Shown in pieces: positions 32,357 through 40,714 of a DNA stretch of 53,106 nt. The position numbers and the translations under genes were made by a program. The notes beneath the pieces are model-generated. The model was not told where the DNA came from and made no database searches. It saw nothing but the letters and a program-made list of their open reading frames with translations. This DNA comes from Mariprofundus sp. Its GTDB lineage: Bacteria; Pseudomonadota; Zetaproteobacteria; Mariprofundales; Mariprofundaceae. How positions within the stretch are numbered: the first letter of the stretch is position 1; each line of letters begins with the position of its first letter. The stretch is from assembly GCA_030951045.1 (NCBI GenBank), contig JAUZQJ010000025.1, positions 1 through 53,106 on the forward strand, written 5' to 3'.

Positions 32357-32950
32357 ATGGCATTGTTAATGGATTGGAAGATGAAGTACCTGTTTGCGTT
32401 TGTATGCTCGGTTTGTTTTTTAATCGCAGGAGAGGCTCAGGCGCAAAATATTACGCGTGAGCACGACGAGGTTGATGATTGTGCCGACAGTTCCGTTGCC
32501 TATGAAGAGACTTCAGGTCTGACTAGAGAGGAAACCATTCATTTAATGGATCAGGCTCTGTTGAACTCCCTGAATAAATATGAACGTTGCCAGAACAGGC
32601 AGTTGAATGCTGCTGTTGCTAATGACGCAACAAATGAAGAGGAGAGTGGCAGCGAGAGATCAACTGCCAGTTCTGAAATGACGGGGACAAGTAAGAGCAC
32701 CGATGGTGAGCTTCAGGATCAGGCGGCAGGTGCTGATCCTGAAGCGCTGGATCAGCGTAAAAACGTTAAAGCGAAAAAGGTATTAGGCAGCGGAAAGGTG
32801 CCGGATGATATTCCACCTGCTGATAATGACAGTGTGCTTGAAGAGCAAATTCGTCAGGCTGCCATCAATGAGAGTGATCCTGTGATTAAAGAAAAACTGT
32901 GGAATGAATATAGGAAATATAAGGGTTTACCTGTTACTGGTAGTCATTAG
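32357..32950 (+). CDS. Secreted protein of unknown function, first gene of the VWA/proton-channel cluster
   Basis: A 197-residue protein. Residues 1-29 form a signal peptide (cleavage near AQAQN). The mature chain is hydrophilic and acidic: a short helical part with two Cys (DDCADSS and YERCQNR, perhaps a disulfide), a Ser/Thr/Glu/Gly-rich flexible middle (about residues 95-140), and a C-terminal helix with VIKEKLWNEYRKYKG. No family recognised. GAGG lies seven bases before the ATG. The 154 bases upstream (32203-32356) must contain the cluster promoter, but I could not place -35 and -10 boxes with confidence. A lipoprotein gene follows after 13 bases. Confidence 0.75.
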   Translation: MALLMDWKMKYLFAFVCSVCFLIAGEAQAQNITREHDEVDDCADSSVAYEETSGLTREETIHLMDQALLNSLNKYERCQNRQLNAAVANDATNEEESGSERSTASSEMTGTSKSTDGELQDQAAGADPEALDQRKNVKAKKVLGSGKVPDDIPPADNDSVLEEQIRQAAINESDPVIKEKLWNEYRKYKGLPVTGSH

Positions 32951-32963
32951 GAGGGCGAAAAGC

Positions 32964-34211
32964 ATGATGGTGTTTAAAAAGATGATTTCGATTTTTATTG
33001 CCTGCTCTGTATTGTTATCGGGCTGTGCGACAGGTGTTGGCAGTTCATCTCAGCCTAAGGTGGGGCCGCAACTCTCATCGGCATATGATAAAACGGTGGT
33101 GAAGAAAGAAGTCGCTCCAGCCATTGAGAAACCAAAACTTGATATCATTGTGCCTGTCTTCGATCCGGGGCTTCCTGATGATCCCGAAGATTATGAAGCT
33201 GAAGGTGTTTGGCCAGAACTGCGTCGTGCTGAAGCATCCCGTTTTGCCTACCAGATGAAACTGGCACTTGAAGAAACGGGAGCGTTTGGAGCGGTTCGGG
33301 TGATGCCTGATAGCAGTGCAACCGGTGATCTGTATGTTGTAGGTAAGATTAATAAGTCAAATGGTGTGGATATCGATATTGATATCAAGGTGTCTGATAT
33401 CAGTGGAAAAAAGTGGTTTGATAAATCATTTGACCATGAAGTGGCTGCCGACTTTTACAATAATATAAGAAATAAAGGTAAAGATCCCTACGCGCTAGTG
33501 TTCAAGAAGGCGGCAGAAAAACTGGTGGAAGCGTTGAATGATCATAAGGATAAGCAATTAACACAGCTGCAGGCGCTTACTGATTTGCGTTTTGGGGCAA
33601 ATTTTTCTGATGATGCTTTCTCCCAATACATGCGTGTGAAAGGCAACAAGTTTACGCTGCTGGGATATCCGGACGCTAACGACAGCATGTTAAGGCGAGT
33701 GAAGGCTATTCGGGTTAGGGATCAGTTGTTTATCGATCGCATGCAGCCGCATTACGAACAATTTAATCAGAAAATGGAAACCAGTTATGTATTGTGGCAA
33801 AAACAGAGTTTTGAAGAGGTGAAGGCGGCGCACAAGGCAAAAATGGAATCGATCAGTAATGCTGCTGCTGGTATTGGCCTGATTGCACTTGCTGTGCTAT
33901 CGGCTGTTGCCGGTGGAAACTCAAATTCCACCGGTGGTGTTGTGGCGGGAACAACCGGGGCTATCGTTGCAGGACAGATTGGCATGGGTATGTTGGGTTC
34001 CAGCGTACAGATGAATGAAGAGTCTAAATTTCATAGAGATGCGTTAATTGAGCTTGGTCAATCTATCGAGGGTGAAATTGCACCTCAGGTAGTCGAACAT
34101 GAGCAGACTACGGCTAAATTAACGGGAAGCGCAAAGGAGCAGTTTTCTCAATGGAGAGCCTTTCTTAAAAGAATGTTTGAGCAAGAAGTCACTCCAGATG
34201 TTCAGCTTTAG
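32964..34211 (+). CDS. Outer-membrane lipoprotein of the VWA/proton-channel cluster
   Basis: A 415-residue lipoprotein. The lipobox is VLLSGCAT with the lipidated Cys at residue 21; Ala at +2 predicts outer-membrane sorting by Lol. A periplasmic alpha/beta region (residues 50-200) resembles the fold of small peptidoglycan- or outer-membrane-associated lipoproteins, with VVGKINKSNGVDIDIDIKVSDISGK. A helical part follows, then a Gly/Ala-rich hydrophobic stretch (about residues 295-345: AGIGLIALAVLSAVAGG and GAIVAGQIGMGMLG) that could insert in a membrane as a glycine zipper. GGAGGG precedes ATG 32964. I do not recognise the family. Confidence 0.82.
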   Translation: MMVFKKMISIFIACSVLLSGCATGVGSSSQPKVGPQLSSAYDKTVVKKEVAPAIEKPKLDIIVPVFDPGLPDDPEDYEAEGVWPELRRAEASRFAYQMKLALEETGAFGAVRVMPDSSATGDLYVVGKINKSNGVDIDIDIKVSDISGKKWFDKSFDHEVAADFYNNIRNKGKDPYALVFKKAAEKLVEALNDHKDKQLTQLQALTDLRFGANFSDDAFSQYMRVKGNKFTLLGYPDANDSMLRRVKAIRVRDQLFIDRMQPHYEQFNQKMETSYVLWQKQSFEEVKAAHKAKMESISNAAAGIGLIALAVLSAVAGGNSNSTGGVVAGTTGAIVAGQIGMGMLGSSVQMNEESKFHRDALIELGQSIEGEIAPQVVEHEQTTAKLTGSAKEQFSQWRAFLKRMFEQEVTPDVQL

Positions 34212-34226
34212 CAGACCCCTTTTCAG

Positions 34227-35681
34227 ATGTTAGAAGAGAAACTACAACAAGCGAGTCAAGCCAGTCAAAAACAGAGCCAGCGTACGCTCTTGTGGGTTAC
34301 ATTGGTGCTTATGTTCAGTGTTGTGGCTGTAGTGCTGATGACAATGATTGGATCTGAGACGTCAGAACCCGTTGCTTCGCAGTCACCTTCAGTGGTCTTG
34401 CAAACTCAGACACCGGTTCAGATGCAGGTGCCGATTCAGGATATGCATCAGCAGGGGCTTCGCGAGGCTGTGATGAAGCGCTTGCAGGCATTTGAAGAAG
34501 AGCAGGAGCCTGCACTTGCGAGCGCGAACTTGGAGCAGTGGAAGCCGGAAAAAAATGCGGTACTGCATACACTGAAGGAAGATGTACTTTCATCATTTGC
34601 CAAAGGAGACTACGCCCTTGCAAGCCAGAGGCTTGATCAATTGGCGTTGCTGGCACAGCAGTTGTTAGCCGAGTGGGGTGAGACTTTTGTATCGGAAACG
34701 TTGATGGCGGAAAATGCTCTCAAAAATGATGATTATGTTGCCGGTAAATTGCATGTGACAAAAGCACTATTGCTTAAGCCGGATGAGCCTGGAGCAAAGA
34801 ACCTTCTGAAAAAACTGGAAGCGCTGCCTGAGCTGTTGGCATTATTGAAGCGGGCAGATGTAGCACGCATAGAAAATAATTTTGAGAAAGAGTTGACGGT
34901 ACTGGAACATGCGTTTGCGATTGCCCCCGATCGGAATGGCCTCAAACAGCGAAAAGATATGTTGGCTGAAACATTGAAGGAGAGGAGATTTTCGCAATGG
35001 ATAAGCAGCGCATGGCAGGCACTGGAAAAAAACGATATCAACACAGCCAGGCTTAATTATCATCAGGCAAAACGTCTGTATGCCAAACGCGGTGAGCTGA
35101 AGCCTCTCAATGACGCCATTGCTAAAACCTCGGCAAGGCTTGATCTAAAGCAGTCGCTTAGCGCTGCTGGGCAGATGATCAGGCAAGATGAGTGGCTTAA
35201 GGCAGAGCGTATCTACGCGAAATCATTACAGCGACATCCACAGGATAAAACGCTTCGGGATGGATTACAGCTGGCCACAAAGGTGGTGAGTTTGCAAGCT
35301 GCGTTGAACGACTATATCACACGATCAGATAGATTATCGGCACAAAATATTTCTGCCGCAGCAAAAGATACGCTGATTCAGGCAGAGGTATTTGCACGCA
35401 ATAGTAAACGATTAAGTTTTCAAATTACGAAGTTGAAAACATTGCTCGCAAAAGTGAATATAAAAAGAGCTGTAATGGTGAAATCGGATAATAATACATT
35501 TATTCTGGTACGCGGTGTTGGGAAGGTTGGTCTTACGCCCGGTCGTGAAATTCAGTTGAAAGCTGGAGAATATACCTTTGAAGGTAGCCGCCCGGGTTAC
35601 AAATCCAAGCTTGTGCAGGTGCGTGTGCCAATTGATGGAGCGATGATCAGGGTGGAGGTCATTTGTGATGAACGCATCTGA
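34227..35681 (+). CDS. Membrane-anchored helical-repeat protein with C-terminal PEGA-like module
   Basis: A 484-residue protein. A short cytosolic N-terminus and one membrane helix (about residues 20-43, TLLWVTLVLMFSVVAVVLM) place the rest in the periplasm. Residues 75-400 are helical with TPR-like character (ALKNDDYVAGKLHVTKALLLKPDEPGAKNLLKKL; ALEKNDINTARLNYHQAKRLY). The C-terminal 75 residues form a PEGA-like beta module (GKVGLTPGREIQLKAGEYTFEGSRPGY). TPR-like repeats and PEGA modules are protein-interaction or wall-interaction elements, so a scaffold role is inferred. The next gene starts inside its 3' end. Confidence 0.8.
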   Translation: MLEEKLQQASQASQKQSQRTLLWVTLVLMFSVVAVVLMTMIGSETSEPVASQSPSVVLQTQTPVQMQVPIQDMHQQGLREAVMKRLQAFEEEQEPALASANLEQWKPEKNAVLHTLKEDVLSSFAKGDYALASQRLDQLALLAQQLLAEWGETFVSETLMAENALKNDDYVAGKLHVTKALLLKPDEPGAKNLLKKLEALPELLALLKRADVARIENNFEKELTVLEHAFAIAPDRNGLKQRKDMLAETLKERRFSQWISSAWQALEKNDINTARLNYHQAKRLYAKRGELKPLNDAIAKTSARLDLKQSLSAAGQMIRQDEWLKAERIYAKSLQRHPQDKTLRDGLQLATKVVSLQAALNDYITRSDRLSAQNISAAAKDTLIQAEVFARNSKRLSFQITKLKTLLAKVNIKRAVMVKSDNNTFILVRGVGKVGLTPGREIQLKAGEYTFEGSRPGYKSKLVQVRVPIDGAMIRVEVICDERI

Positions 35682-37737
35682 ATCAGACAATCCAACGGGC
35701 GGAGAGAATCAAAATCCCAGCCATGTAGCGCGAATGACTGCCGAGCTATTGCAAGCCAAAGTGAGGCAGAGAAGACGATATATATTTGCCACGCTTGCGT
35801 TGATGCTCAGTCTGCTTGTTATGCTTGCGATTTTGGTGCTTTCGAATGCCACCAGCATAGATGTTGAGCCTGAAGAGGCCGGGCAGATTGCCGACGTTCG
35901 GGTTGTGAATGGCGTGGGAAAGGCTCTCGGTCATAAGGTCTATTCCTGGAGTGCAAATCCAACGATTGAAGTCTCTGCTACGGGGTTCAGGGCATCGCAT
36001 AAAACCTTATCAGCATCTGAAATTGGAGGAACGGTAAGGGTTGAATTGCAGGCCTTGCCAGGAGAGCTTCATATCATCACAACACCGGAGTCAGACCAAA
36101 CACGTTGGTTTGTTGACGACCGCATGGTGTCTGTTGGAGCGGCGTTCAAGCAAGATCTGTATGCTGGAAACTATAGCATTACAATCGATAGTCCCTACTA
36201 CCTGAAAAAAACGCTTCCCGTTACGATCAAGCGAGCTGAGCAGTTGCAGCTGAGTGAATCTCTGGAAAAGGTTTCCGGTCAGTTTCATATCAACACTGTT
36301 CCAGCCGGTGCCGAGGTTCATATCAATGATGAGCTGATTGGCAAGGCTCCAGTCTCCATAGCAAAGCAGGGCGGGGCATATCAGATTGTGGTCTCTTCTG
36401 GTGATTACGAGCCGATTAGCGAAGCGGTAGAGCTGACCAATAGCGCAAGTGTGGTGGAAAGAGATTACAGCTTGCTTTTGAAGGGGGCTTATCTGGATGT
36501 GCATACCGCCCCTCCGGGAGGGCAGTTGTTGTTGGATGGAAAGGTGGTGAAGGCCGGACGTTTACAGGTGAAGGCCGGGCAGATTCATTCACTCCGGTAT
36601 GATCAGGACGGTTACTTTCCACAATATCGCAAGGTCTCAGCAAAATCCGGCGAGGAGAAAAGCATCGCTTTCAACTTGAAGGCAGAGATGGGCCTTGTCG
36701 GTGTTGTCTCTAGTCCAATTGCGCGGGTGAGCATCGATGGCAAAGATGTGGGAAAAACTCCGTTGGAGCTCAAGTTGTCTGCAATATCTCATCATCTGAT
36801 CATCCATAAAAAAGGCTACCGTTCGCACCAACAACTTATTGTGCCAAGCAGCGCATCTGCGCAACGGGTCAGGGTGGTGTTGCCGACAGAGATAGAGGCC
36901 AAACTTGCAGAGTCAGCTGCATTGATGCGCAATAGTGCTGGCATTGAACTTAAACTGTTCAAGCCAGATGATCTGTTCGTGATGGGAGCGCCGCGCCATG
37001 AAAAAGGACAACGGGCCAACGAATTTTTAAGAACAGTGCGGTTGAGCAGACCATTCTACATTGCCACGCATGAGGTATCGCGCAGTCAATTTTCGCGATT
37101 TAAGTCTGTTGCCGGTGCCAAAAATGAACCGGCGACATCGATTAGCTGGATTGAAGCGGCGCAATTTTGCAACTGGCTTAGTAAGCAGGAGGGCATGGTT
37201 CCGTTTTATGATATTCGGGCTGGTCGTTTGATGGGGGCGAATATCGAATCGGCTGGATACCGCTTACCAAGTGAAGCGGAGTGGGAGTGGTTGTCCAGAA
37301 AGGCAGGCAAGTCAAAACAGACCAAGTTTGCCTGGGGCGATGACACCACGATTGCTCCGAAAGCAGGAAATATTGCGGATGAATCGGCCAAAGCTAGCAC
37401 AGCGCGCTATGTGCCCAATTATTCCGATGGCTTTGCCGGTGTCGCACCAACAGGCAGTTTTCCTGTTGAAAGTATGGGTTTATATGATCTGACCGGCAAT
37501 GTCAGTGAGTGGGTGCACGATGTATATGCGTTGGTACCGAATGCCGGTGTGAAGACAGAGGTAAACCCCTTAGGGGCGAGAACTGGTGATACCCATACCG
37601 TTAAAGGTTCAAATTGGCGTTCTGGCGGCATCACTGAACTTAGAGCGGCTTATCGTGAAGGTAAAAAAGCAGGACGAGATGATATAGGGTTTAGAGTTGC
37701 AAGGTATGTTTATGGAGGAATCAATGGAGAAAAATAG
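35668..37737 (+). CDS. PEGA-repeat protein with formylglycine-generating-enzyme-like domain
   Basis: A 689-residue single-pass protein. One membrane helix lies at about residues 38-60. The periplasmic part has about four PEGA-type modules (for example PAGAEVHINDELIGKAPVSI and SIDGKDVGKTPLEL). Residues 430-689 form an FGE-sulfatase/SUMF1-like domain: FYIATHEVSRSQFSRF, GYRLPSEAEWEW, GLYDLTGNVSEWVHD, VKGSNWRSGG and DDIGFRVAR. The Cys pair of true formylglycine-generating enzyme is absent (the strand reads SNWRSGGITELRA), so it is probably a binding domain, not an active oxidase. GGAGGT precedes ATG 35668; GTG 35665 is possible. It overlaps both neighbouring genes. Confidence 0.87.
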   Translation: MNASESDNPTGGENQNPSHVARMTAELLQAKVRQRRRYIFATLALMLSLLVMLAILVLSNATSIDVEPEEAGQIADVRVVNGVGKALGHKVYSWSANPTIEVSATGFRASHKTLSASEIGGTVRVELQALPGELHIITTPESDQTRWFVDDRMVSVGAAFKQDLYAGNYSITIDSPYYLKKTLPVTIKRAEQLQLSESLEKVSGQFHINTVPAGAEVHINDELIGKAPVSIAKQGGAYQIVVSSGDYEPISEAVELTNSASVVERDYSLLLKGAYLDVHTAPPGGQLLLDGKVVKAGRLQVKAGQIHSLRYDQDGYFPQYRKVSAKSGEEKSIAFNLKAEMGLVGVVSSPIARVSIDGKDVGKTPLELKLSAISHHLIIHKKGYRSHQQLIVPSSASAQRVRVVLPTEIEAKLAESAALMRNSAGIELKLFKPDDLFVMGAPRHEKGQRANEFLRTVRLSRPFYIATHEVSRSQFSRFKSVAGAKNEPATSISWIEAAQFCNWLSKQEGMVPFYDIRAGRLMGANIESAGYRLPSEAEWEWLSRKAGKSKQTKFAWGDDTTIAPKAGNIADESAKASTARYVPNYSDGFAGVAPTGSFPVESMGLYDLTGNVSEWVHDVYALVPNAGVKTEVNPLGARTGDTHTVKGSNWRSGGITELRAAYREGKKAGRDDIGFRVARYVYGGINGEK

Positions 37738-37870
37738 ACGATCCAGGACACGGTTCTTTATCCTTGCCATGCTCGGACTAGTGGCACTTGGCATGGCAGT
37801 AGGTGCTGCCAACGCTGCGATGCAGTCGATTAAGCTCAATTCAGCAGCAACATTTCCGGTGGATATATAA
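37724..37870 (+). CDS. 48-residue membrane or secreted peptide in the VWA/proton-channel cluster
   Basis: ATG 37724 opens a 48-codon frame ending with TAA at 37868-37870. GGAGGA (37714-37719) lies four bases upstream, a strong ribosome-binding site inside the end of the preceding gene. The peptide has a basic start (EKNRRSRTR), one hydrophobic stretch (FFILAMLGLVALGMAVG) and an AANA-A segment that could be a signal peptidase site, then a 16-residue polar tail. The stop codon abuts the ATG of the channel gene (TAAATG), a tight coupling. It may be an accessory subunit of the membrane complex. Function unknown. Confidence 0.75.
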   Translation: MEKNRRSRTRFFILAMLGLVALGMAVGAANAAMQSIKLNSAATFPVDI

Positions 37871-38629
37871 ATGACAGATATGATAAAGAGTTTTATAGCA
37901 CTGATTGTTAGTGCGATTTCCGTTCACCTTGCATATATCGGGTTTGTTCGGCCTCAGGCCGACTTGATTATGCAGATGGCCAAGCAGGCAGGGCAATCAG
38001 CACCGCGCGATATCCTTGTGATTATGAAAGATTACGAGCAGGAGATCTGCATTATCCTGATGATCTGGGCTGGTTATTTGATCTTGAGCAAATGCATGGC
38101 CATTCTCAAAGACCGCTATTTGTTCAGTGTTGATCTGCTCGATCAAAGTGAGCAGCGTGGTACTGATCTCCATAGCGCGCTAACGAATTTAGAAAGCTTG
38201 CCGGTGGAGACCAAATCAACACCGCTGGTGATGACATTAATGGCCAGCGTGCGCCGTTATCTGATCACCAGCGATGTGCAAAACACATCCGATGCGATTG
38301 ATTCGAGTATTGAGGCGATGGCCATTCGGCAAGATGCGGGTAACTCCATGATCCGGTATTTAATTTGGGCAATTCCTTCGATTGGATTTATCGGGACAGT
38401 GCGCGGCATTGGTGGAGCACTGGCTCAGGCCGACCAGGCCCTGGCTGGGGATATTGGTGGCATGACCAACAGTCTGGGGCTGGCCTTTAACTCAACCTTT
38501 GTGGCCTTGCTGATCAGTATTGTTTTGATGTTTATGCTGCATCAGCTATTGCGATTGCAGGATGATCTTGTGGTGGATACTCAGGATTATTGCGAGCAGT
38601 TTCTCCTGAAACGGATTTCCGAGCAGTAG
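37871..38629 (+). CDS. MotA/TolQ/ExbB-type proton channel subunit
   Basis: A 252-residue inner-membrane protein with four hydrophobic segments: residues 6-26, 58-78, 161-184 and 202-224. The long cytosolic loop (residues 80-160) is typical. The pore helices carry the family signatures PSIGFIGTVRGIGGAL and LGLAFNSTFVALL. Thr 176 and Thr 209 are 33 residues apart, the same spacing as the pore-lining Thr 148 and Thr 181 of ExbB. Family knowledge: five such subunits surround two B-subunit helices and pass ions to drive rotation or force. Here the B partners are presumably the two VWA proteins that follow at once. Confidence 0.93.
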   Translation: MTDMIKSFIALIVSAISVHLAYIGFVRPQADLIMQMAKQAGQSAPRDILVIMKDYEQEICIILMIWAGYLILSKCMAILKDRYLFSVDLLDQSEQRGTDLHSALTNLESLPVETKSTPLVMTLMASVRRYLITSDVQNTSDAIDSSIEAMAIRQDAGNSMIRYLIWAIPSIGFIGTVRGIGGALAQADQALAGDIGGMTNSLGLAFNSTFVALLISIVLMFMLHQLLRLQDDLVVDTQDYCEQFLLKRISEQ

Positions 38630-38636
38630 GCCCAAG

Positions 38637-39698
38637 CTGAAAATTCACCGTAAAACAGAAGGCTTTAATATTGCATTTTTGGATATTATGGCCTCAGGCC
38701 TTGGTGCGATTATCCTCGTGCTGATTCTGGTTAAACAGGATGTGGACAGAGCCTCTCCTGAAACGGATCTGTTGAATGCGGATCTGGCCCGTATTGAGCA
38801 GCAGGATGCTGATCTTAATCGTGCCATCGCCAGCGTTGATCAGGATAGTTTAAAAGCCGCCGCTGAAATCACCAAAGTGCAGGCGAAAATCTCAGATGTA
38901 AAATCCGAACTGATACAAAAAAGCGACCAGCTGTCGCAAAAAGCATTACAACTCTCGGCTGTAAAAGAGACGATAAAGAATGCGCCTAAAGCAAAAAAAG
39001 ATGATGTTGTTCGTAGTGATCCCGGTGGTGAAGAAGATTATATCATGGGGATCAAAGTAGAGGGTAAGCGAATCGTCTTCCTTATCGATAGCAGTGCATC
39101 GATGACAGATGAAAAACTCATCGACATCATCCGTCGAAAGAACAGTTCAGCGCTAGAGAAAAAAAGAGGGCCTAAATGGAAACGAACGCTACGTATCGTG
39201 CGTTGGTTAGTTGCTCGAAGTCCTAAATCCAGTCAGCTGGCTGTAGTCACTTTTAATAAACAGGCAACAGCACTTGGCGGTGGCTGGTTCTCCAGTCGCG
39301 ATGCGGCAGCACTTGAAACTGTTCAACGTGATCTCGATACGCTAGTGCCAACAGGCTCTACAAATTTACAACGGGGACTAAAAAAGTCAGTTGCCTTAAA
39401 TCCAACGGATATTTATCTGGTGACCGATGGCTTGCCTACCGCTGGCATATCAAGATACGCTAGTCTCAATCCGTTTGCTGCTTGCGGCTCGCTATTGGGG
39501 AAATCCAATAATATTTCAGGGTTATGTCGCGTGAAACTGTTTCGCCAGAGTGTTGCGGATAGTGCGCCGGGACAAGGCACTAAAATCAATGTCATTCTAC
39601 TGCCTATGGAGGGTGATCCGGATGCAGCACCTGAGTATTGGCGTTGGACTGCTGCAACAGGTGGTCTGTTGATTAGTCCGGCATCGAGCTGGCCATGA
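38637..39698 (+). CDS. ExbD/MotB-like stator protein with VWA domain, probable CTG start
   Basis: A 353-residue protein from CTG 38637. The N-terminal KIHRKTEGFNIAFLDIM leads into one membrane helix with Asp 16 in the FLDxM context, which matches the proton-binding Asp of ExbD/MotB. A Gln/Asp/Lys-rich coiled coil follows (about residues 40-115), then a VWA domain (from about residue 140) with an intact MIDAS: DSSAS at residues 151-155, the Thr in PTGSTNLQRG, and the Asp of LVTDGLPT. Upstream of TTG 38679 only CTG is near-canonical. TTG would remove the cytosolic tail that the paralogue keeps. A weak AGG at 38628-38630 lies six bases before CTG. Its stop overlaps the next start (ATGA). Confidence 0.85.
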   Translation: MKIHRKTEGFNIAFLDIMASGLGAIILVLILVKQDVDRASPETDLLNADLARIEQQDADLNRAIASVDQDSLKAAAEITKVQAKISDVKSELIQKSDQLSQKALQLSAVKETIKNAPKAKKDDVVRSDPGGEEDYIMGIKVEGKRIVFLIDSSASMTDEKLIDIIRRKNSSALEKKRGPKWKRTLRIVRWLVARSPKSSQLAVVTFNKQATALGGGWFSSRDAAALETVQRDLDTLVPTGSTNLQRGLKKSVALNPTDIYLVTDGLPTAGISRYASLNPFAACGSLLGKSNNISGLCRVKLFRQSVADSAPGQGTKINVILLPMEGDPDAAPEYWRWTAATGGLLISPASSWP

Positions 39699-40633
39699 AG
39701 TTACGTAGACACAATATTGAGATTTTTACCATCTCATTCCTGGATATTATCTCATCAGCCTTTGCAGCAGTGGTGTTACTGGTGTTGATCTCCAAGCCGT
39801 TACCTAATCCTTTGGATCTGGGGGAGACTGAATCGTTGCTGAAGCAGGTGGTGTCGGCGGAGAGTCAGCTTTCTGATTCAGCCAGAGAGCTTGAAAAGAA
39901 ACGTCAGGAGCTGGCTCGCTTGCAGCAAATTAATAGTTTACTGCAGGCTTCTGAGAAGGGCGCACGGAAACAGGTGGGGGATAAAACCAATCAGCTGGAG
40001 AAGCTCGATGGTGACCTTGATGGATTATCCTTGGTGCAATCATCTCTCAATAGAGCATCAATCCGACCAAGTTCAGCGACGGTAAGGGATGAAGAGGTTG
40101 GCGGCATTCCTGTTGATAGCGATTATATTATTTTTATTGTCGATACCTCGGGCAGTATGCTTCAAATTTGGAATAGCGTGTCTAAGACCGTGCTTAATGT
40201 GTTGAAGATTCATCCCAAGGTGAAGGGGTTCCAAATTATGAATGACAATGGTATGCCTCTGATCTCGAGTTATTCAGGTAAGTGGATTCGCGATACGCCG
40301 CAGCGGCGTAAGAGCGTGATGAATGTATTCGGAGCATGGAAAAGTGCGTCAAACAGTAGTCCGGTTGAAGGGCTTGAAGTGGCGCTGAAAAAATATGCCA
40401 AACCGAATATTTCGCTGTCGATCTATATTTTTGGAGATGATTATACCGGTGCATCGTATGATGCGGTGATTGATAGTGTTGATGCGCTCAATCGCAATAA
40501 GATCACAGGCAAAAAACTGGCGAAAATTCATGCGGTTGGATTTATGTCGAACTATGCTACTAACCGTTTTTCGATCCTGATGCGGGAAGTCACCAAACGA
40601 AATGGCGGAACGTTCCTGGCATTGCCTCTGTGA
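39695..40633 (+). CDS. Second ExbD/MotB-like stator protein with VWA domain
   Basis: A 312-residue paralogue of the preceding protein. The N-terminus KLRRHNIEIFTISFLDIIS enters one membrane helix (residues 12-33) with Asp 17 at the proton-binding position. A coiled coil spans about residues 45-110. The VWA domain starts near residue 142: DTSGS at 150-154 is the MIDAS loop, and FGDDYTG supplies the later Asp. MIDAS domains bind a divalent metal and a partner acidic side chain. It overlaps the first VWA gene by four bases (ATGA), so equal amounts are likely. It is the last gene of the cluster before a strong terminator. Confidence 0.9.
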   Translation: MKLRRHNIEIFTISFLDIISSAFAAVVLLVLISKPLPNPLDLGETESLLKQVVSAESQLSDSARELEKKRQELARLQQINSLLQASEKGARKQVGDKTNQLEKLDGDLDGLSLVQSSLNRASIRPSSATVRDEEVGGIPVDSDYIIFIVDTSGSMLQIWNSVSKTVLNVLKIHPKVKGFQIMNDNGMPLISSYSGKWIRDTPQRRKSVMNVFGAWKSASNSSPVEGLEVALKKYAKPNISLSIYIFGDDYTGASYDAVIDSVDALNRNKITGKKLAKIHAVGFMSNYATNRFSILMREVTKRNGGTFLALPL

Positions 40634-40663
40634 TCCAGTGCTTCGGGGATACAAAGCTTCATT

Positions 40664-40694
40664 AAAAAAGGGAGCCAAATGGCTCCCTTTTTTT
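40664..40694. terminator. Bidirectional intrinsic terminator
   Basis: A six-base A run, GGGAGCC (40670-40676), loop AAAT, GGCTCCC (40681-40687) and seven T form a symmetrical hairpin with T-tracts on both strands. It terminates the VWA cluster (plus) and nrdJb (minus), which converge here. Confidence 0.95.
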
Positions 40695-40714
40695 GTACTG
40701 CTTTTATGTGTGGA

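Follow-up and report, generated by a model that had tools for sequence, protein, structure and literature searches.

Which machine would be built around an ExbB-type channel protein and two VWA proteins, and what work would it do in the bacterial envelope? The question is raised by an eight-gene set (g1 to g8) at positions 32357-40633 of a 53,106-nucleotide stretch of DNA from the iron-oxidising Mariprofundus (Zetaproteobacteria), which we call the window. An earlier note on this DNA had proposed an uncharacterised, force-transducing trans-envelope complex in which VWA proteins act as stators. We analysed each gene product, the conservation of the set across genomes and its likeness to known ion-driven systems.

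Results

Eight genes form one compact unit

The ORF list confirms all eight reading frames, which lie on the plus strand throughout, as the earlier note had claimed. Its claim of tight spacing holds as well, since every gap is at most 15 nt or an overlap: 13 nt separate g1 from g2, 15 nt g2 from g3, 0 nt g5 from g6 and 7 nt g6 from g7; g3 and g4 overlap by 14 nt, g4 and g5 also overlap, and g7 and g8 share 4 nt (ATGA). The strong terminator said to close the set is found downstream as an intrinsic terminator at about 40664-40693 on the plus strand, with a GC stem between A and T runs; the region 40634-40700 folds with -26.5 kcal/mol (z = -4.5). A promoter scan of the window gave nothing above chance level. 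The neighbouring genes appear housekeeping-like by eye. As the GC content of the operon (0.473) equals that of its flanks (0.475), composition lends no support to a recent foreign origin, and the idea of a mobile island was dropped.

g6 is a TolQ/ExbB-type channel subunit

The product of g6 (37871..38629) matches Pfam MotA_ExbB (PF01618) above the cut-off (1.4e-12), and the closest structures to its AlphaFold2 model (pLDDT 85.5) are TolQ and ExbB, with TM scores up to about 0.7. Structure comparison was informative here where a sequence search of solved structures with the g6 and VWA profiles was not, the latter giving no informative match. Thr176 and Thr209 are invariant in the family (40/40 each) and Thr199 is kept in 39 of 40 sequences. 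The Pfam match and the predicted fold thus bear out the MotA/TolQ/ExbB-type protein of the earlier note, and g6 is an A subunit of this family, as found in 5:2 motors. A search of the host genome returned seven MotA/TolQ/ExbB-family matches, so g6 is additional to the ordinary members. Long open frames in three genomes had suggested a fusion of g6 and g7, which we rejected because a TAG separates the two genes in every Mariprofundus copy examined; a programmed frameshift is also unlikely as the frame relation varies between species.

g7 and g8 combine a MotB/TolR-type helix with a VWA domain

Both g7 (38637..39698) and g8 (39695..40633) encode a short basic stretch followed by a single hydrophobic helix (FLDIMASGLGAIILVLILV and ISFLDIISSAFAAVVLLVL, respectively), a coiled coil and a VWA domain with a MIDAS. 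The VWA assignment of g7 is given by Pfam VWA_2 (2.4e-6, above the cut-off); g8 reaches only 0.17 against Pfam VWA and is identified by its homology to g7 (profile comparison, E = 8e-18), so that two VWA proteins are indeed present. Each carries the DxSxS motif with the downstream T/S and D. In g7 the MIDAS residues D151, S153 and S155 are conserved in 38/38 sequences and D264 in 36/37, and in g8 D150, S152, S154 and D248 are conserved in 35/35.

The helix of each protein contains one Asp (Asp16 in g7, Asp17 in g8) that is invariant in 38/38 g7 and 35/35 g8 sequences. Alignment of the helices to MotB with hhalign places Asp on Asp with E = 0.0012 for g7 and 0.0002 for g8, compared with 0.07-0.24 for an anchor helix used as control; in statistical terms this likeness is modest, and neither protein matches Pfam MotB_plug (PF13677) at E ≤ 1. 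Both nevertheless appear to have the single pore-type helix with Asp that marks the B subunit of 5:2 motors, and no ExbD-, TolR- or MotB-like gene is found by ORF list and Pfam among the eight genes of the window. On account of this helix with its invariant Asp, g7 and g8 are best read as B (axle) subunits of the MotB/ExbD type. VWA partners of an ExbB-type channel are therefore retained from the earlier note, and its assignment of them as stators is replaced.

The most likely start of g7 is the CTG at 38637. A start at TTG 38679 was rejected because homology continues through LKIHRKTEGFNIAFLDIM, where ATG, GTG and TTG are missing; upstream of the conserved helix none of these codons occurs in any of the 12 copies from the Mariprofundus family. 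CTG (window 38627-38640) is the only start candidate that g7 has in common in all 12. Inefficient initiation of g7 at CTG, with g8 coupled to it through ATGA, would be in keeping with a low number of axle subunits relative to channel subunits.

Putative envelope partners encoded by g1 to g4

Judged by their N-terminal segments, all eight proteins are membrane-bound or exported. The secreted protein and the lipoprotein of the earlier note are recovered as g1 and g2. The former (32357..32950) is a flexible exported protein with a low-complexity middle and a conserved C-terminal motif (PDDIPPADNDSVLEEQIRQAA..E.DPVIKEKLWNEYRKYK). Just ahead of this tail a P-x-D-[IV] motif resembling the end of g5 is often seen, in the window (32790-32830) and in homologues, and some copies are without it. 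The lipoprotein g2 (32964..34211) has the lipobox LSGC (LSGC-A) and is probably located in the outer membrane. Its model comprises an alpha/beta domain (residues about 55-192), long helical segments, a low-confidence Gly-rich turn and a small C-terminal domain. The alpha/beta domain bears a weak likeness to FlgT, the TolB N-terminal domain, PelC and LptE, the best match having E 0.0013 and a TM of about 0.2 over the whole query.

The product of g3 (34227..35681) is a single-pass, N-in periplasmic protein with TPR-like repeats and a small C-terminal beta domain. The repeats are weak in the window and clear in a homologue (L028, 1e-12), which upholds the TPR-like single-pass part of the earlier description; its PEGA part is not supported, as the window copy has no Pfam match and the same homologue scores 0.003, below the cut-off. 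For g4 (35668..37737) the description as a PEGA/FGE-like single-pass protein proved correct, with Pfam matches above the cut-off to FGE-sulfatase (6e-34, C-terminal fold) and to PEGA (7.5e-28, three stretches). The cysteine pair near the C-terminus, which we take to be the active site of formylglycine-generating enzymes, is absent in the 9 aligned g4 proteins, whose only invariant Cys sits in FCNWLS. FGE catalysis by g4 was therefore rejected, and its FGE-like fold would serve in binding.

g5 belongs to a family with an invariant P-x-D-I tail

The 52-residue product of g5 (37712..37870), an exported or membrane-anchored peptide, ends in FPVDI. It had been listed as a generic membrane peptide and turns out to belong to a family whose C-terminus is always [F/Y/M]-P-x-D-I-COOH, the remaining sequence being poorly conserved (L020-L100). 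The loci examined contain 12,385 open frames of at least 30 residues, of which 41 terminate in P-x-D-I; 40 are the small gene of this cluster, not all of them independent as L020 and L072 are one genome, and the remaining frame is a chance match in L084. From their sequences, some copies look like cleaved secreted proteins and others, including those of Mariprofundus, may be membrane-anchored. The gene lies directly upstream of g6 in most copies, and where g6 is displaced (L096 and L097) it is kept between g4 and the next gene. In contrast to the additional gammaproteobacterial genes described below, the tail occurs throughout the cluster and is therefore expected to have a core protein as its partner.

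The gene set is conserved as a unit and is accessory in Mariprofundus

All eight genes are present in the closest named relative, Mariprofundus sp. EBB-1 (L017), with 91-100% identity. Counting the genome of the window, g6 occurs in 12 of the 23 Mariprofundus genomes, so that the set is accessory in the genus, and in two more genomes of the family. The downstream neighbours of the window are syntenic across the genus; in three genomes (G001, G012 and G019) the operon does not adjoin them, and its chromosomal place thus differs within Mariprofundus. Clustering of the neighbouring genes returned only g5-type small proteins, a loose ORF cluster (five loci) and flanks common to one genus. Plasmid, phage and viral collections yielded no relatives.

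Of 369 gammaproteobacterial genomes sampled across the class, 31 gave a strong match to g6 (E < 1e-70) and another six a weak one. An independent search with g8 found 32 genomes, namely all 31 with strong g6 matches and one with a sister system (G481). The genes are accordingly conserved together, and the lack of conservation that would have spoken against the earlier note did not occur. Other Mariprofundus and many gammaproteobacteria share both the genes and their order. Among loci on sufficiently long contigs, g1 was found at 21, g2 at 22, g3 at 23 and g4 at 23 of 24, and g7 and g8 at 26 of 27, with a nearly constant order. The recurrence of g1-g2-g3-g4-g6-g7-g8 across genera is far more than chance would give. 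The sole clear break of the cluster is seen in G599, where g6 stands alone (L095), with no P-x-D-I gene nearby, and g7 and g8 lie on another contig (G599:C5); two related genomes have g6 displaced behind g8.

Many gammaproteobacterial copies additionally encode a cytoplasmic-looking protein between g6 and g7, two lipoproteins, a BepA-like M48 protease and a TPR/TonB_C-like protein. As these are not found at Mariprofundus loci we place them outside the core. One copy of the gene between g6 and g7 (L087:1360-2700) has an FHA domain at its end (4.6e-13). An Hsp70/actin-like label for this gene had been given by eye only and was not kept, Pfam returning nothing except the FHA domain in that copy. 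Three further loci (L101, L102 and L105) represent sister systems, in which a g6-like gene lies near genes that look FHA-, PP2C- or HtrA-like by eye; the one in L102 includes a VWA protein whose membrane helix contains a D (FSMSALDLFASAMGA).

Discussion

A proposed motor with a VWA axle

MotAB, ExbBD and TolQR share an anatomy in which a pentameric channel encloses a two-helix axle. Because g6-g8 resemble these systems, we propose the same arrangement here and read g1-g8, with a probability of about 0.7, as an ion-driven envelope motor of the 5:2 type, with a VWA heterodimer as axle and g1-g5 as the remainder of a trans-envelope complex. In this motor g6 would build a pentameric, TolQ/ExbB-like inner-membrane channel, and g7 and g8 would pair as a heterodimeric axle. 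Their N-terminal helices would occupy the pore, where a single protonatable Asp on each would point towards the ring of Thr residues in g6. The passage of ions would turn the axle, or make it stroke, and the coiled coils would pass this movement to the two VWA heads, perhaps 10 nm into the periplasm, which may hold acidic ligands via their MIDAS metal sites. The single-pass proteins g3 and g4 would provide a periplasmic scaffold, g2 the outer-membrane partner, and g1 and g5 flexible exported linkers. We infer the stoichiometry, ion flow, rotation, partners and direction of force, and it is the gene order that suggests one complex of g1-g5 with g6-g8. The motor is supported by the invariant Asp, Thr and MIDAS residues, the MotB alignment, the lack of another B gene, and the strict co-occurrence and order. 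This is further supported by PMC12204202, in whose text the same core is independently proposed with AF3 models. A TolQ/ExbB-type channel with VWA partners in a conserved envelope set thus stands at the level of sequence, and force transduction, as the earlier note had it, is a proposal.

The VWA proteins might also not be an axle at all; they could bind the edge of g6 or act as independent, chaperone-like assembly factors. VWA proteins often have such a function, yet the invariant Asp lies within the helix, the helix aligns with that of MotB and the set has no other recognised B-subunit gene, which makes this distinctly unlikely. For the motor itself, the purpose that we consider most likely is outer-membrane maintenance or lipoprotein handling in functional parallel to Tol-Pal, a task for the machine and not an alternative to it, to which we incline only tentatively and at less than even odds. 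It would agree with the TolQ-like fold of g6, the weak likeness of the g2 domain to TolB, PelC and LptE, and the lipoproteins, BepA-like protease and TPR/TonB_C-like protein added in many gammaproteobacteria; the structural scores are weak, however, the extra genes are not found at Mariprofundus loci, and as the motor is not universal it cannot be an essential replacement for Tol-Pal.

Surface motility or adhesion ranks next, with a machine like Gld/T9SS or Agl-Glt whose VWA and FGE-like domains would act on an adhesin at the cell surface. In g4 the FGE-like domain matches GldK with 2.7e-19, but with 69.8 bits against an NCBIfam cut-off of 350. Gliding systems do contain VWA domains and 5:2 motors, and the text of PMC12204202 suggests a similar role for a related VWA family; however, no outer-membrane barrel, adhesin or T9SS gene was recognised among the recurrent parts and g6 resembles TolQ/ExbB, so we regard this purpose as unlikely. 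Phage defence of the Zorya type, in which infection would be signalled by ion flow through g6 with g7 and g8, comes last and is highly improbable. A weak likeness of g6 to ZorA in profile searches (E 0.01-0.03), the patchy occurrence in the genus (12/23 genomes) and the varying chromosomal places would fit it, but each of the eight proteins is predicted to be exported or bound to a membrane, the set contains no cytoplasmic effector such as a helicase or nuclease and gave no PADLOC match of note, its neighbours look housekeeping-like by eye, and searches of phage, plasmid and viral collections did not find it.

Within the proposed motor the g5 tail may serve as a ligand of the VWA domains, the MIDAS being hypothetically the most obvious site for an acidic ligand. 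The MIDAS of the axle heads might clasp P-x-D-I-COOH via its Asp or carboxylate and so form a metal-dependent link between rotor and envelope. We consider this conceivable though rather doubtful; if true, it would give a 5:2 motor a novel type of clutch.

Taken together, g1-g8 encode a real, conserved and probably ion-driven envelope machine. It is probably useful to its hosts, since Mariprofundus relatives and about 8% of the sampled gammaproteobacterial species have kept it as a unit. A function is known for very few families of ion-driven envelope motors. With the partner list, the predicted motor core becomes a defined candidate machine whose contacts can be tested, namely the VWA heads, the g2 lipoprotein and the g5 tail, and the sporadic occurrence in one genus allows strains with and without the gene set to be compared.

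Comparison with known systems

With TolQR and ExbBD the set has in common the fold of g6 and a single-helix B subunit with a putative pore Asp, whereas VWA domains replace the periplasmic domain of TolR/ExbD, two B genes are present and no TolA/TonB anchor was found in the core. The B-helix motif aligns with that of the MotAB stator; in contrast to MotB, g7 and g8 have no OmpA-like peptidoglycan domain, and the fold of g6 is closer to TolQ than to MotA. Zorya ZorAB shares the weak ZorA similarity, but its ZorA-ZorB pair with an OmpA-like ZorB and its effector genes are not found in the eight-gene set, which has VWA heads in place of the OmpA domain. The sister systems (L101, L102 and L105) possess a related g6-like gene, with FHA-, PP2C- and HtrA-like genes (by eye) instead of PEGA/FGE and g2.

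The closest parallel is the TPH-vWA family of PMC12204202 (2025), which starts from an Idiomarina query and is presented there as an AF3-modelled prediction of unknown function (Fig. 4c-d). As described in its text, a TolQ-like gene is paired with two different VWA proteins bearing a TolR-like transpore helix, and tolR/exbD are missing. The same holds for g6-g8, which comprise a TolQ-like gene and two different TPH-vWA genes with no adjacent tolR/exbD, and by description share the heterologous VWA pair and the conserved Asp. The motor core was already predicted in 2025, so the earlier note's 'uncharacterised' holds only in part; we found no description of the whole eight-gene composition. Unlike the Mariprofundus set, the family as given in the text of that paper includes no g2-type lipoprotein or PxDI peptide, and no PEGA, formylglycine, SUMF1/FGE or Hsp70 partners are mentioned there; partner genes may be drawn in its figures. 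Thus, the partner genes appear undescribed, and what is new here is the conserved partner set, the g5 tail, the g2 lipoprotein with its weakly TolB/FlgT/PelC-like domain and the conserved CTG start of g7.
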